Part shown: positions 2,568 through 62,101 of the stretch, piece after piece | How the letters are laid out: each line of letters begins with the position of its first letter | Position numbering within the stretch: the stretch's first letter is position 1 | Program-made: the position numbers and the translations under genes | The notes under the pieces: generated by a model | Databases searched by the model: none | Told to the model about the DNA's origin: nothing | What the model saw: only the letters and a program-made list of their open reading frames with translations | Assembly: GCA_947631115.1 (NCBI GenBank) | Contig: CANRKB010000007.1 | Location: 1-64,000 of the forward strand | Source: an uncultured Clostridia bacterium | Lineage (GTDB): Bacteria > Bacillota > Clostridia > Oscillospirales > Ruminococcaceae | Direction: 5' to 3' | DNA length: 64,000 bases

Positions 2568-2981
2568 CGGCACGAAAGTTTTTTGAAAAGGGAGTCCAGA
2601 GGGAAAAAATTTTTTTCAAAAAATTTTTTCCCTCTGGTCGCGGCGAAGCCGCGAAACTTCGCTTTATAGCGCTAAATGGTGCGGGGAAAACAAGAGTTTT
2701 CCCCGCATTGCCGTTTCAAAGCCGTGCTTTGAAACGGCAATCCTAAAACAAGTTTTGAGCGGGGAACCACCTCAAAAGTGAAATAACTTTAGAGCGGGAA
2801 AGAAAAACGTTAAGGCTATAAAAAAGTGATAAATGAGCGAACAGCTTTTCGGCTATTACTGAATACTGTACCCTGTACACTGTCAACTGCCCGACTAGAA
2901 GCTAGAGTCTAGAAGCAAGAGGCTAGAGTTTAAACTCCAGCCTCTTTTTATTCGTCATATTTGGCGAACAGCCTTTCGGCT
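2568..2981 (-). repeat. composite intergenic repeat, inverted copy of 28658-29140
   Basis: reverse complement shares the same module order and long near-identical blocks with 28658-29140 (aataaaaagaggctgg..., ggattgccgtttcaaagca[c/t]ggctttgaaacggcaatgcggggaaaactcttgttttccccgca, gggaaaaattttttgaaaaaa). Confidence 0.85.
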
Positions 2982-3070
2982 TAAACTCTAACCTCTTACC
3001 TCTAACCTCTAACCTCTAAATGCCGTCGCTTAATGGTATCTGTAAAAATCGGGAAAATTTATTTTTCGTA

Positions 3071-4371: not shown

Positions 4372-4468
4372 AAGTAAGAGATAAGAGGTAGGAGGTAAGA
4401 ATTCAAACCGAAACTGAATACAGCGTTGCACGCGAAGCGTTCAATGCGTACACTGTACCCTGTATACT

Positions 4469-9778: not shown

Positions 9779-9807
9779 TTGACAAACAGATATAATTGTG
9801 ATAGAAT
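9779..9807 (+). promoter_or_regulatory. sigma-A promoter for pfp
   Basis: TTGACA-N17-TAGAAT; the ORF-track start at 9779 is the -35 box. Confidence 0.7.
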
Positions 9808-9853
9808 GATTTTAGGAAAATCCGAAAAAATAAATTCTTTGGAGGTAATTATC

Positions 9854-11080
9854 ATGCAGCTCGGAAATGTTGTAGTCGGTCAGTCCGGCGGACCTACTTC
9901 TGTTATCAACTCAAGCCTTGTCGGAGTTTTCAAAACCGCAAAGGACGCGGGTTGTCCTCATGTTTACGGTATGAGAAACGGTATTGAGGGTCTTTTAAAA
10001 GAGAATTTTATCGAGATGTCGGATTATGTAAAGAACGATCTCGATATCGAGCTTTTAAAGCGCACGCCCTCGTCTTTCCTCGGAACGTGCCGCTATAAGC
10101 TCCCCGATTTTACAAAGGACGAGGAGACCTACAAAAAGATCTTTGCTATCTTAAACAAAATGGACATCAAGCATTTCTTCTACATCGGCGGAAATGACTC
10201 GATGGATACCATCGACAAGCTGTCGAAATACTCCGAAATAATAAAGAGCGATATTACTTTCATCGGTATCCCCAAGACCATAGATAACGACCTTGCATGT
10301 ACGGACCATACTCCCGGTTACGGAAGCGCGGCAAAGTACATAGCTGCGGCAATGAAAGAGATAATCCGCGACGCTACGACTTACAGCACCGACAGCATAA
10401 ACGTCGTTGAAATAATGGGACGCGACGCAGGCTGGCTTACTTGCGCGGCTACGCTCTCGCGCTCGGAGGACTGCGCGGGGCCCGACATAATCTGCCTCCC
10501 CGAAAAGGTTTTCGATTATGATAAGTTCATGAACAAGATAGCGGATATTCGTAAGGAAAAGAAAGTCATAACCATTGCGGTTTCCGAAGGTATAAAAACG
10601 GCTGACGGAAAGTATGTCTGCGAGGCGAACAGACGCTCGATGACAGAGGACGCTTTCGGTCATAAGACCCTGGGCGGTACGGCGCTTTATCTTGCGGACT
10701 TTATCGGCGGAGAAACGGGCGTCAAGTCCAGAGGTATCGTATTCTCGACGCTTCAGAGATGCGCTTCTCACCTTGTTTCGCGCCGCGACATAACCGAGGC
10801 GTTTACGGCGGGAGCGGACGGCGTTCAGCTTGCTTTAAACGGCGAAACGGGAAAGATGATAACGTTTGAGAGAATTTCAAACAATCCCTATCAGCTGAAG
10901 ACTTCTTCTTGCCCTGCTTCGGCAGTTGCAAACGTCGCGAAGATGGTTCCCGACGAGTGGATAATAAACGACGGCGCTTATGTTTCAAAGGAGTTTGCAG
11001 AGTATGCGCGCCCGCTTATAATCGGAGAGCTTTCTCCGTTTATGGTAGACGGTCTGCCCAGACATCTGTTCCTCGATTAA
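9854..11080 (+). CDS. pfp: PPi-dependent 6-phosphofructokinase
   Basis: GQSGGPTSVINSS, GGNDSMDT, GIPKTIDND (Lys rather than Gly before TIDND), MGRDAGWLT. Confidence 0.85.
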   Translation: MQLGNVVVGQSGGPTSVINSSLVGVFKTAKDAGCPHVYGMRNGIEGLLKENFIEMSDYVKNDLDIELLKRTPSSFLGTCRYKLPDFTKDEETYKKIFAILNKMDIKHFFYIGGNDSMDTIDKLSKYSEIIKSDITFIGIPKTIDNDLACTDHTPGYGSAAKYIAAAMKEIIRDATTYSTDSINVVEIMGRDAGWLTCAATLSRSEDCAGPDIICLPEKVFDYDKFMNKIADIRKEKKVITIAVSEGIKTADGKYVCEANRRSMTEDAFGHKTLGGTALYLADFIGGETGVKSRGIVFSTLQRCASHLVSRRDITEAFTAGADGVQLALNGETGKMITFERISNNPYQLKTSSCPASAVANVAKMVPDEWIINDGAYVSKEFAEYARPLIIGELSPFMVDGLPRHLFLD

Positions 11081-11091
11081 GACAACTGAAA

Positions 11092-11120
11092 ATAAAAGGA
11101 AGCCTTCGGGCTTCCTTTTA
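11092..11120. terminator. bidirectional rho-independent terminator
   Basis: aaaataaaaGGAAGCC-ttcg-GGCTTCCttttat. Confidence 0.8.
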
Positions 11121-11125
11121 TACTT

Positions 11126-11252
11126 AGATTGTATAAAAAGTCAAGTTGCAGACTGTATAGAAAGCCCCGTATACCGGGAAGCGCCGCTGCAACTAGCCTT
11201 TGTGGCTGTTGCAGCGGCGCTGACGAAGTAGATGGGGCTTTATATACAATCT
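11126..11252. mobile_element. MITE-like repeat, copy A (127 bp)
   Basis: perfect 10-bp TIR AGATTGTATA / TATACAATCT; internal 14-bp hairpin 11180-11193/11208-11221; homologous to the reverse complement of 61264-61391. Confidence 0.75.
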
Positions 11253-11871
11253 GACTCCCGCTCAACTGAGCGGGAGCGTCATATATTCAATTTTAAATTC
11301 ATCCTGCTTGTAAGCTGAATATTACATCGGACCGTACCTCTCAATAAAATTCGTATCTATCACAAATTTTACCGCCCATGGGACTCAATCCTCTCGGTCT
11401 AATTTTCCTCTCCTAAACTTCAAAGCGCACATTCTAATCACCTAATTCTTCTTGGGGGTTATATGTAAACGCCTTTGAGCGACTTCGTCGCTGCAAGCGG
11501 TAGAAAATGTCTGCGGACTGCCTCACACGCCAAGGTATTTATCAACCGGGTAATGACCCTCACATCGACGAATCAACGCACCAACTTGTGCGGATAAACG
11601 CCCTCAAATTCGACCCAAGCGGTAGGCGGAACACGAATCCGCAGACCGTTCAAAAAATCCTTCACTCATTTCCATTGGACTCGCTTCCTTTCTGCTTCAA
11701 GCTGAATTTTTTCGGCTTTCATGCCTTCGGATAATTCCTCATCTCTCACCGATTACTTAGCTATATACCTATAGACCTTTCCTCGGGTTTAAATCAGATA
11801 CCCATCGGACTGAACCGCCTTTCTTGGTTTTCATTAAGGAAGATCCGCCGTCGCGGTCTGTCTTTCCTTGT
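11253..11871 (-). ncRNA. candidate large structured non-coding RNA (unassigned)
   Basis: no plausible CDS; many local stems (11509-11517/11638-11646; 11478-11492; 11577-11592; 11761-11774; 11836-11841/11864-11869; 11255-11276); strong minus promoter immediately upstream. Confidence 0.55.
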
Positions 11872-11877
11872 GATTAT

Positions 11878-11906
11878 ATGATAACATATTTTTTGTTAAA
11901 AGTCAA
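11878..11906 (-). promoter_or_regulatory. sigma-A promoter driving the minus-strand ncRNA candidate
   Basis: TTGACT-N17-TATCAT on minus strand, A/T-rich upstream. Confidence 0.65.
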
Positions 11907-17767: not shown

Positions 17768-18035
17768 CTCCGTCAGTATACAGGGTACAGGGTACAGTAT
17801 TCAGTTAAGGAATCCGCCTTGCGGCGGATAAGATTAGATTGTTATCGGACTGAAACGTTTTGGAGCGTTATCTGTAGTCAGTTGACAATCATAATATTAA
17901 GCAAATTGAACAAGAGTAAAGAGCGTAAACCTATCGCAGGCTTACGCTCTTTAAATTATAGAACAATCTAAATAACGTCCGCCGCAAGGCGGACACATTC
18001 TACTGCATACTTTACACTGTAAACTGTATACTGGC
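17764..18035. repeat. nested inverted-repeat element, copy 1
   Basis: outer arms gtatacag...acagtattcagtta / ctactgcatacttta...ctgtatactgg; palindromes tccgccttgcggcgga and gtccgccgcaaggcggac; inner arms attagattgtt / aacaatctaaat. Confidence 0.8.
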
Positions 18036-19863: not shown

Positions 19864-20050
19864 GCAGTTGACAGTTTACAGTGGACAGTATTCAGTTATG
19901 GTGTCCGCTTCGCGGACAATATTAGATTGTTATCGGACTTAAACGTTTTGGAGCGCTACCGTAAAAGTTATGCTCGTGTGCTGTTTAGCTAAAAACAATC
20001 CAAATCTTATCCGCCGCAAGGCGGATACCTTTTACTGCATACTGTAAACT
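19864..20050. repeat. nested inverted-repeat element, copy 2
   Basis: same architecture as 17764-18035: ggcagttgacagtttacag...agtattcagtta / tactgcatactgtaaactgtcaattgcc; attagattgttatcggact[t/g]aaacgttttggagcg; aacaatccaaat. Confidence 0.8.
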
Positions 20051-21010: not shown

Positions 21011-21098
21011 AACTTAGCGAACAGAAAGCGCAGGTCAAGGCTTGCGCTTTTTGTTTTTGCAAAAAAATGATAATAAAATAGACGCTCTTTAAAGCCTT

Positions 21099-21302
21099 AG
21101 TCTGTATAAAAACCTATTTGTTGTTCTTTTCAAACGTAATTTTTCAGAATAACGTTTACTCGCCCCATCCCCCTGCCCCCTTCCCCGAAGGGGAAGGGGG
21201 AGAATGCGGGGACTCCGTCCCCGCAACCCCTGTTGGCAATATACGCATTGTCTGCCATTGGTGAATTATGATACAACGTTGATTAGGCTTTATATACAGA
21301 CT
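21099..21302. mobile_element. MITE-like repeat between scfA and scfB (204 bp)
   Basis: perfect 10-bp TIR AGTCTGTATA / TATACAGACT; interior shares aacgttattctgaaaaattacgtttgaaaagaac and G/C-rich modules with other repeats. Confidence 0.7.
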
Positions 21303-21344
21303 GAACAGACCGTTGATGAGGTCTGTAGTTATATGGAGATTAAG

Positions 21345-24235: not shown

Positions 24236-24780
24236 TAGAGGTAAGAGTGTAAGCGCATTATCCGCCTTACGGCGGATAACGCTGTAAGAGGTAAGAATTT
24301 CAAGGAACTTTTGAAAGATAAAGTTTTTTGGTGTTCAGAGAAAGAGGCTAGAGGCTAGAGTTAAAACCCCAGCCTCTTTTTTCTGTTTATAAGTTATGTT
24401 CAGCGGAGAGTTTTGGCTGTTACTGACTACAGCGTTGTACGCGAAGCGTTCAATGTGTCCACTATACCCTGTCAACTGCGCGACAGGCGGGTCGCAGGGC
24501 GCGCCCGGCGCCCCGCTATTCCCCCTTCCCCTTTTAGAGATAAGAAATTAGAGGTAAGAGGTTAGAGTTTGAGAGGAGAGGTTATTCGATTTTCGTAAGT
24601 ATTCCAGCCTCCGGCTTCTTACATCTTACCTCTAACCTCTGGAAGCCGGGGCAGCGGGGGCGGCATCCCCCGCACTTTCCCCCTTCCCCTTCGGGAAAGG
24701 GGGCAGGGGGATAGGGCGAAAAAACGTTATTGAGATAAACAACGTTTGAAAAGAATCACAAATATGTTAAGCGTAAAACT
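24236..24780. repeat. composite intergenic repeat cluster
   Basis: agaggttagaggtaagag motifs, ccgccttacggcgg palindrome, tactgactacagcgttgtacgcgaagcgttcaatg, cccccttccccttcgggaaagggggcaggggg, aacgttattgagataaacaacgtttgaaaagaa. Confidence 0.75.
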
Positions 24781-28657: not shown

Positions 28658-29140
28658 TAACAGCCGAAATGTTATTTGCAGAATATAACGAATAAAAAGA
28701 GGCTGGGGTTTAAATTCTAACCTCTTGCTTCTAACCTCTAGCTTCTAGTTGGGCAGTTGACAGTGTACGCATTGAACGCTTCGCGTACAACGCTATGGAC
28801 AGTATGCAGTAAGAGCCGAAAGACAGTTCTCTTATTTACCACTTTTAAAAAGTCTTAACGTTTTTCTTTTCCGTTCTGATGTGGTTTCACTTTTGAAGCT
28901 GTTCCACGCTCAAAACCTCTTTGTAGGATTGCCGTTTCAAAGCATGGCTTTGAAACGGCAATGCGGGGAAAACTCTTGTTTTCCCCGCACCCCAGGTTAA
29001 ATGCCGTAGGCATTTAACCTGATGCGCTATGCTGGCGATTGCGGGGACTCCGTCCCCGCACCCCTGCCAGAAGGGAAAAATTTTTTGAAAAAAATTTTTC
29101 CCCTCTGGACTCCCCTTTCAAAAAACTTTCGTGCGCCGCC
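28658..29140 (+). repeat. composite intergenic repeat, direct-orientation copy of the 2568-2981 element
   Basis: same ordered modules as the reverse complement of 2568-2981. Confidence 0.85.
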
Positions 29141-34013: not shown

Positions 34014-34147
34014 CGGTCAGACCTTCTTCCGTTAAATATTAGGCTTAAGCCTTATCTAATTTTATCATATTCTTTAAATTATTGCAAGAGCGTAAGAACA
34101 TTTTCAGTCAATTTTCACAAAAAACTAATGAAAATTTCTCTATCTAC

Positions 34148-34395
34148 AGATTGTATAAAAACCTATTTGTGTTTATATTCAAACGCTATTTTTCTCAATA
34201 ACGCTCATTCGCCCTATCCCCCTGCCCCCTTCCCCGAAGGGGAAGGGGGAGAATGCGGGGCGCTGGCGCGCCCCGCGCCCCGCATTTAAAGAGATTAGAA
34301 ATAAGAAGTAAGAGATTAGATTTTTAACCCCTATCATTGACCTCTGAAAGGTCGCAGCCTCTCTCAGACCCTGAAAAGAGATTTTTATACAGACT
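34148..34395. mobile_element. MITE-like repeat (248 bp)
   Basis: TIR-like ends agattgtataaaaacct / agatttttatacagact; interior modules shared with 21099-21302. Confidence 0.65.
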
Positions 34396-34412
34396 ACTAA
34401 CAAAAATATTAT

Positions 34413-61209: not shown

Positions 61210-61263
61210 TAAAAGGCTTTGTGCAACTAATGCTTTATATGCGGGATAAACCGAATTCTTACC

Positions 61264-61391
61264 GGACTGCAGATAAAGCCCCATCTACGTCGTCAGAAGC
61301 CCAGCGGCAGGCACAAAGCCTAGCCGCAGGACTTCTTCCCAGTATCCGGGACTTTCTCTACAGTCTGAAGCAGGACTTTTTATACAGTTTG
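61264..61391. mobile_element. MITE-like repeat, copy B (128 bp)
   Basis: reverse complement aligns end to end with 11126-11252; hairpin 61295-61308/61323-61336 with changed but largely complementary arms. Confidence 0.75.
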
Positions 61392-61429
61392 TTCTTATTT
61401 CTTATAATTGAAAGGAATTGAAAATCATT

Positions 61430-62101
61430 ATGCGAATGCGCCGTAAGAAAAACCTTGACGAAAGGCTTGAAAAATGCCGCGGGTCAATGCTTTATATGCA
61501 GTGTCAGAACGAGCATGCAAACGACCCGCTGTCCGAAGAATTTTTCGCCGACAGCAGAAAAACTTTCGGGAATGATAATCCGCTGTATCTTGAGATAGGC
61601 TGCGGAAAGGGAGGCTTTGCGATAGAATTTGCAAGGCAAAATCCCGATATAAATCTCATAGCCGTAGAAAAAACGCCGAACGTTCTTATAACGGGAATGG
61701 AAGCGCAGGAGGAATTAAAGCTCCCGAATCTTAAATTCTGCATGGGACAGGCGGAGTATCTCTGCCATTTGTTTCACGAGAATACTATTGACAGAATCTT
61801 TCTTAATTTCAGCTGTCCTTTCCCGAAAAATCATTATGCCGCGCACCGCCTTACGCACGAGCGCTTTCTGGAAATATACCGCGCCATCATGAAGCCCGAA
61901 GCGGAAATTCACCAGAAAACCGACAATATGCGCTTTTTCGAGTTTTCGGTAGAAAAGTTCTCGCAAAACGGCTTCGGCTTAAAAAACGTTTCGCTCGATC
62001 TACATAACAGCGGCTTTGAGGGGAATATTATGACTGAATACGAAAAGCGCTTTGCCGATCTCGGTCAGCCTATCTACAGGCTCGAAGCGTTTTTAAGATA
62101 A
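61430..62101 (+). CDS. trmB: tRNA (guanine-N7)-methyltransferase
   Basis: YLEIGCGKGGFAIEFA, RIFLNFSCPFPKNHYAAHRLTHERFL. Confidence 0.9.
   Translation: MRMRRKKNLDERLEKCRGSMLYMQCQNEHANDPLSEEFFADSRKTFGNDNPLYLEIGCGKGGFAIEFARQNPDINLIAVEKTPNVLITGMEAQEELKLPNLKFCMGQAEYLCHLFHENTIDRIFLNFSCPFPKNHYAAHRLTHERFLEIYRAIMKPEAEIHQKTDNMRFFEFSVEKFSQNGFGLKNVSLDLHNSGFEGNIMTEYEKRFADLGQPIYRLEAFLR

Follow-up and report, generated by a model that had tools for sequence, protein, structure and literature searches.

The closest known relatives of the elements described here are insertion sequences of the IS1182 family. IS1272 and TnSha1 of Staphylococcus target stem-loops and terminators without sequence preference (PMC5678879, PMC4923244); the target stem-loop is lost with no duplication upon insertion of IS1272 (PMC5678879) and partially deleted by TnSha1 (PMC4923244), and duplication of the whole stem-loop has been drawn as a hypothetical 'pathway b' (PMC5678879). 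In Clostridium group III, the portion of PMC3098183 considered here places every insertion site of ISCbo5/ISBma2 but one in a gene-end hairpin, and it deals with a full-length insertion sequence, describing no MITE and giving no details on what becomes of the hairpin copies. The elements reported below share with IS1272 and TnSha1 the stem-loop or terminator targets and an IS1182-family transposase (in our case the putative mobiliser), and with ISCbo5/ISBma2 the location in gene-end hairpins, but they duplicate the whole stem-loop where IS1272 and TnSha1 delete or replace it.

Repeat lengths in the IS1182 family are very variable in ISfinder. Short bacterial MITEs such as ERIC and Correia/NEMIS possess terminal inverted repeats and many intergenic copies, and some of them fold into hairpins; ERIC and Correia generate TA target duplications, and their ends and targets are unlike those of the present MITE. 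Palindromes with variable stems and a strand preference, as found here, are also typical of REPINs/BIMEs and integron attC sites, which are moved by HUH transposases or tyrosine recombinases and lack the combination of long terminal inverted repeats with a duplicated target. MITEAba12 is likewise short and has terminal inverted repeats and many intergenic copies, with different ends and targets according to the part of the source considered (PMC6382973).

The window (the whole stretch of 64,000 nucleotides analysed) belongs to a 2.06-Mb genome of 60 contigs. An initial annotation had noticed in it two MITE-like units, copies A and B, with a covarying internal hairpin. Sequence comparisons make it very probable that copy A belongs to a non-autonomous MITE family moved in trans by an IS1182-family DDE transposase, which often inserts at the feet of stem-loops with duplication of the whole hairpin. 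Within the open-access PMC literature, three features appear to be new: the whole-hairpin duplication, a MITE of the IS1182 family and the covarying hairpin core. Hairpin targeting by IS1182/IS1272 was already known.

Anatomy and distribution of the MITE family

Both units are real, but their true ends lie one base wider than the 127 bp (copy A) and 128 bp (copy B) originally assigned (Table 1). The 10-bp terminal inverted repeat, the 14-bp central stem and the single G-U pair and single mismatch in the stem of copy B are as first described. The same holds for the loop, AGSC-TTTGT-GSCT, in which the flanking C/G swap is itself a covarying pair (GC in 17 copies, CG in 13). The inner terminal inverted repeat has 4 matches in the window versus 0 in 100 shuffles.

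Table 1. Coordinates of the MITE copies, their parts and their immediate surroundings in the window
Feature	Position	Strand	Basis
Stem-loop 3' of pfp (ORF 9779-11080), on the left side of copy A	11092..11121	.	Adjacent-hairpin scan, sequence
MITE copy A, long form, 129 bp	11125..11253	+	BLAST, covariance-model hits; ends by family alignment
Outer left terminal repeat TAGATTGTATAAAAAGTC (family: CAGNYTGTATAAAAAGTC)	11125..11142	+	Family alignment; common to IS1182 elements of the genus
Inner left terminal-repeat copy CAGACTGTATAGAAAGCCCC	11149..11168	+	Start of 105-bp short form, hairpin 5' arm
Hypervariable central stem-loop with compensatory changes	11180..11221	+	
Right terminal repeat CAGATTGTATATAAAGCCCC, read on minus	11234..11253	-	Hairpin 3' arm
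Terminal stem-loop of the conserved non-coding region, immediately right of copy A	11254..11277	.	Adjacent-hairpin scan
Second MITE family member, same terminal repeats	21098..21303	+	
Second MITE family member (~230-250 bp), same terminal repeats	34147..34396	+	
Target duplication TTCTTA, copy B, one side	61256..61261		Sequence, direct-repeat scan
MITE copy B, 129 bp	61263..61391	-	Covariance-model hit
Target duplication TTCTTA, copy B, other side	61392..61397		Sequence, direct-repeat scan

The family consensus reads CAGNYTGTATAAAAAGTC-N6-CAGACTGTAGAGAAAGCCCC-(central stem-loop)-GGGGCTTTATATACAGTCTG. The 129-bp long form carries both an outer and an inner left terminal repeat; this extra 24-bp left end parallels the IS1272L variant, which has a 25-bp tandem left-end duplication. 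The 105-bp short form starts at the inner repeat, and two short-form copies (L057, L135) display whole-hairpin target duplications at that very end. A third form of ~153 bp contains nested palindromes of ~27 bp, some of them within the stem. Inner left repeat, central stem-loop and right end together form a single hairpin (-70 kcal/mol, folding z-score -10.5).

BLAST detected 47 matches at ~40 places in the genome to which the window belongs, and a covariance model built from 30 copies returned 75 hits there under strict filters and 102 under looser ones, some hits being one palindromic copy read on both strands; a reading in which only two copies exist is thereby rejected. Within the genus, 39 of 43 genomes contain matches to the model; in 8 genomes drawn from other families of the order, there is none. 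Sequence records of the other family members bear the names uncultured Clostridia or Oscillospiraceae, and many are apparently of gut origin (Lapin, Water_deer_Colon isolates). A search of 2.9 million viral contigs with the loop pattern matched one stretch. Copies are intergenic in 153 of 157 cases and situated within ~30 nt of gene 3' ends, in random orientation relative to the flanking genes (45, 40, 23, 18); copy B lies directly upstream of a trmB-like methyltransferase gene (61418-62101; gene call from Pfam). The family is thus short, non-coding, bounded by terminal inverted repeats and dispersed in several length forms, as MITEs are, and copy number, covariation and target duplications all support the initial view of MITE-like elements whose hairpin covaries.

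A second MITE family, 231-243 bp long, possesses the same terminal repeats (Table 1) and is flanked by hairpin duplications at L083, L085 and L089, so one enzyme probably serves both families. It has no element-long hairpin, and its terminal repeats are unpaired in the predicted fold; since it moves nonetheless, such a hairpin is not essential for mobility. Several strong GC-rich hairpins are present within this second family.

Other repeats also occur in the window. The 27-bp palindromic repeat AGCGTTNTNCGCNNAGCGNNNAATGCG is found at 4422-4448, 24431-24457 and 28768-28794, with 46 copies in the genome versus 0 for the reversed pattern, and similar palindromes are nested within MITE copies L021, L033, L035, L036 and L041-L044. 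Dispersed intergenic repeats of the TAACCTCTTACCTCTAACCTC and CAGTTGACAGTTTACAGTGGACAG types (2978-3018, 24601-24641, 28707-28747, 17774-17808, 19865-19899) apparently represent several further repeat families.

Target sites and duplications

Among the 120 copies whose outer left end is defined, 47 (39%) are bordered by exact flanking direct repeats of at least 5 bp, versus 2% in a null of unrelated flank pairs given the same treatment, the boundary being allowed to shift by 1-2 bases; the other 61% have no detectable duplication. These repeats fall into two classes, one of 5-11 bp, mostly AT-rich, and one of 21-34 bp. In the long class, each of the 14 repeats comprises an entire stem-loop (AAACTCCTGCGGATTGTTTCTGCAGGAGTTC is one), indicating that the target is often a hairpin that is duplicated whole. 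The TA-type duplication that the initial annotation had proposed to look for was not seen. Globally, 43 of 157 copies have a stem-loop directly adjoining them (both sides in 15, one side in 28), against a null of ~2% per side measured 10-60 nt away, and in the 15 copies with a hairpin on both sides the two are mostly identical. The target is therefore often a stem-loop, as in IS1272, but it is retained and duplicated rather than lost.

Sites without the element were also found, and these hold one copy of the repeat (L129/L177, L117/L082; for example, AATAAG and ATTCTTA); in a further comparison (L035/L149) the two loci also differ by 6 bp. At the ortholog of the L019 site in genome G005, there is one hairpin and no element. 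For L041, orthologs were too diverged past the gene end, and a search for an empty site in the neighbourhood of L196 returned mostly other repeats.

Copy B is flanked by a 6-bp target duplication (Table 1). No such duplication borders copy A, whose neighbours are two different hairpins: the pfp-side one and the terminal hairpin of a conserved non-coding region. This is precisely where the initial annotation had placed it. Orthologous hairpins corresponding to the right-hand one are present in G002 and G005, where the element is absent beside the non-coding region; downstream of pfp, the element is absent in five relatives. In G005, pfp and the conserved non-coding region lie ~8 kb apart on the same contig. 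Considering this distance and the absence of the element at the relatives' sites, copy A may mark a rearrangement junction. The non-coding region itself (11270-11900) is conserved in the genus (94% in G002, 93% in G005, 75% in G006 and 67% in G001), has no Rfam match and is probably a large structured RNA encoded on the minus strand.

IS1182 elements as the candidate mobiliser

Searches of the genus with DUF772 and with protein sequences retrieved IS1182-family elements whose ends match those of the MITE. One, of 1551 bp (L195:544-2094, genome G044), encodes an intact transposase of 476 aa, ends in CAGCTTGTCCAAAAACC / CAGTCTGTATATAAACCCC and is flanked on both sides by identical 34-bp hairpins. 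Another, of 1532 bp (L196:1317-2848, G039), lies between identical 23-bp hairpins, AAAGCTCCCCGTTACGGGGAGCT on both sides. Partial elements with shared ends were found at L190, L197 and L198. The transposase carries DUF772 and DDE domains and is assigned to the IS1182 family by NCBIfam NF033551 (379 bits, cut-off 270). Because these full-length elements combine matching ends with whole-hairpin duplications, we infer that the MITE family is non-autonomous and mobilised by an IS1182 transposase. In genome G044, the IS1182 element occurs together with 67 MITE hits.

The same searches found no IS1182 transposase in the MAG that contains the window, and a recognisable one is present in ~6 of the 43 genomes of the genus; insertion sequences are often lost from MAG assemblies. 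Candidates for an autonomous element were rejected: a pair of terminal inverted repeats 2.9 kb apart on C54 encloses host genes, and the single terminal inverted repeats at C42, C51 and C11 have no transposase. Beyond the genus, identical AAGCCTAGTTTTAACTAGGCTT hairpins occur on both flanks of an IS1182 element in Cetobacterium somerae. The IS1182 elements of Thermocaproicibacter melissae (L266) and Enterococcus faecium (L269) have different hairpins on their two sides, like copy A.

Covariation and strand asymmetry of the element-long hairpin

In 28 distinct copies, 98.4% of cells are paired, and both partners vary in 18 of 39 pairs. Double-sided changes affect 107 cells versus 34 +/- 6 in shuffles (0 of 500 shuffles as high), and the covariation score is 0.309 versus 0.134 +/- 0.008; sliding the partners by 1-3 columns lowers pairing from 98% to 24-45%. 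The covariation first noticed between two copies is consequently significant over the family, and it extends into the terminal repeats. Watson-Crick pairing holds at 12.2 of 14 positions across 94 distinct stems, versus 8.7 with the arms exchanged, the former figure leaning upward because these 94 were preselected from 114 stems by requiring 10 or more paired positions.

From 76 ungapped cores of 105 nt, parsimony inferred 92 compensatory double changes and 26 losses to other mismatches, along with 58 changes to G.T versus 19 to A.C (3 to 1 on one strand), all counts being approximate as they derive from a single tree of short sequences. The underlying C-to-T and G-to-A changes in paired columns are about equal (60 and 55), and a mutational strand bias behind the G.T excess was rejected. 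Read-through from neighbouring genes was likewise rejected as a source of the asymmetry, since the orientation to flanking genes is random. A G.T pair is tolerated only in a single-stranded fold of the listed strand; the excess of G.T over A.C therefore suggests that one strand, as RNA or single-stranded DNA, is the folded form.

The arms could instead covary solely through self-correction of the palindrome during replication (template switching, quasipalindrome correction), with no selection on the fold. Compensatory double changes are indeed very common even within the terminal repeats, as arm-to-arm copying predicts. Such correction is strand-symmetric, however, and predicts equal numbers of G.T and A.C; moreover, copies occur in both orientations relative to genes. 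We therefore consider it unlikely as the sole cause, and the two processes may act together. Of the alternatives initially put forward, structure under selection or inversion-symmetric replication, the former is the better fit, because the 3-to-1 excess of G.T over A.C has no matching bias between C-to-T and G-to-A. The compensatory changes and the G.T excess thus suggest that the hairpin is maintained by selection acting on one of the two strands in its single-stranded state. The hairpin's likeliest use would be as a structure recognised in transposition, possibly a preferred donor structure, or as an RNA hairpin insulating the element.

A dispersed gene for a regulatory or structured RNA, as opposed to a transposon, is a very improbable identity for the element. 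Its strong, strand-specific, RNA-like covariation and the location of copies within ~30 nt of gene 3' ends would suit such a gene, but exact target duplications, empty sites, random orientation and terminal repeats common to IS1182 elements and an unrelated 243-bp family all argue against it. Identity with a known Rfam RNA was rejected: the only match in the window at the gathering score is a tRNA, and at E values up to 1 the element has only a weak, sub-threshold miRNA match. Least credible of all is movement by a single-strand system, whether of the REP/RAYT type (Y1 HUH transposase) or of the integron attC type. The imperfect palindromes, hypervariable stems and preferred strand recall such systems, but the DDE hallmarks of long terminal inverted repeats and matching target duplications, ends that match IS1182 elements and a terminal CAGNYTGTATA in place of the attC end boxes RYYYAAC/GTTRRRY speak against them.

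Proposed mechanism and implications

If an IS1182 transposase moves the MITE, as we infer, it would recognise the CAGNYTGTATA-AAAAG ends and place the element in AT-rich DNA between genes or at a stem-loop's foot, the stem-loop being in most cases an intrinsic terminator. Where the target is a stem-loop, perhaps extruded, the presumed strand transfer would link each transposon end to the hairpin's 5' foot on the respective strand, so that gap repair would copy the whole hairpin to both sides; away from stem-loops, the stagger would be 5-11 bp. A more speculative possibility, in which we place little confidence, is that stem-loop feet are what the IS1182-type transposase recognises, in donor as well as target, and that the MITE evolved into an element-long hairpin, the fold of one strand being the transposition substrate. 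If true, both ends of a DDE reaction, donor and target, would be structure-directed.

The two families provide many natural cases in which a complete stem-loop was duplicated by a DDE element, which in the IS1272 study was only hypothetical (PMC5678879). They reveal a large MITE load, probably carried by IS1182, across an uncultured gut genus and explain the origin of terminator-MITE-terminator arrays at the ends of genes that are left undamaged. They also offer a clean test case for whether DDE transposases can read the structure of DNA and not its sequence.
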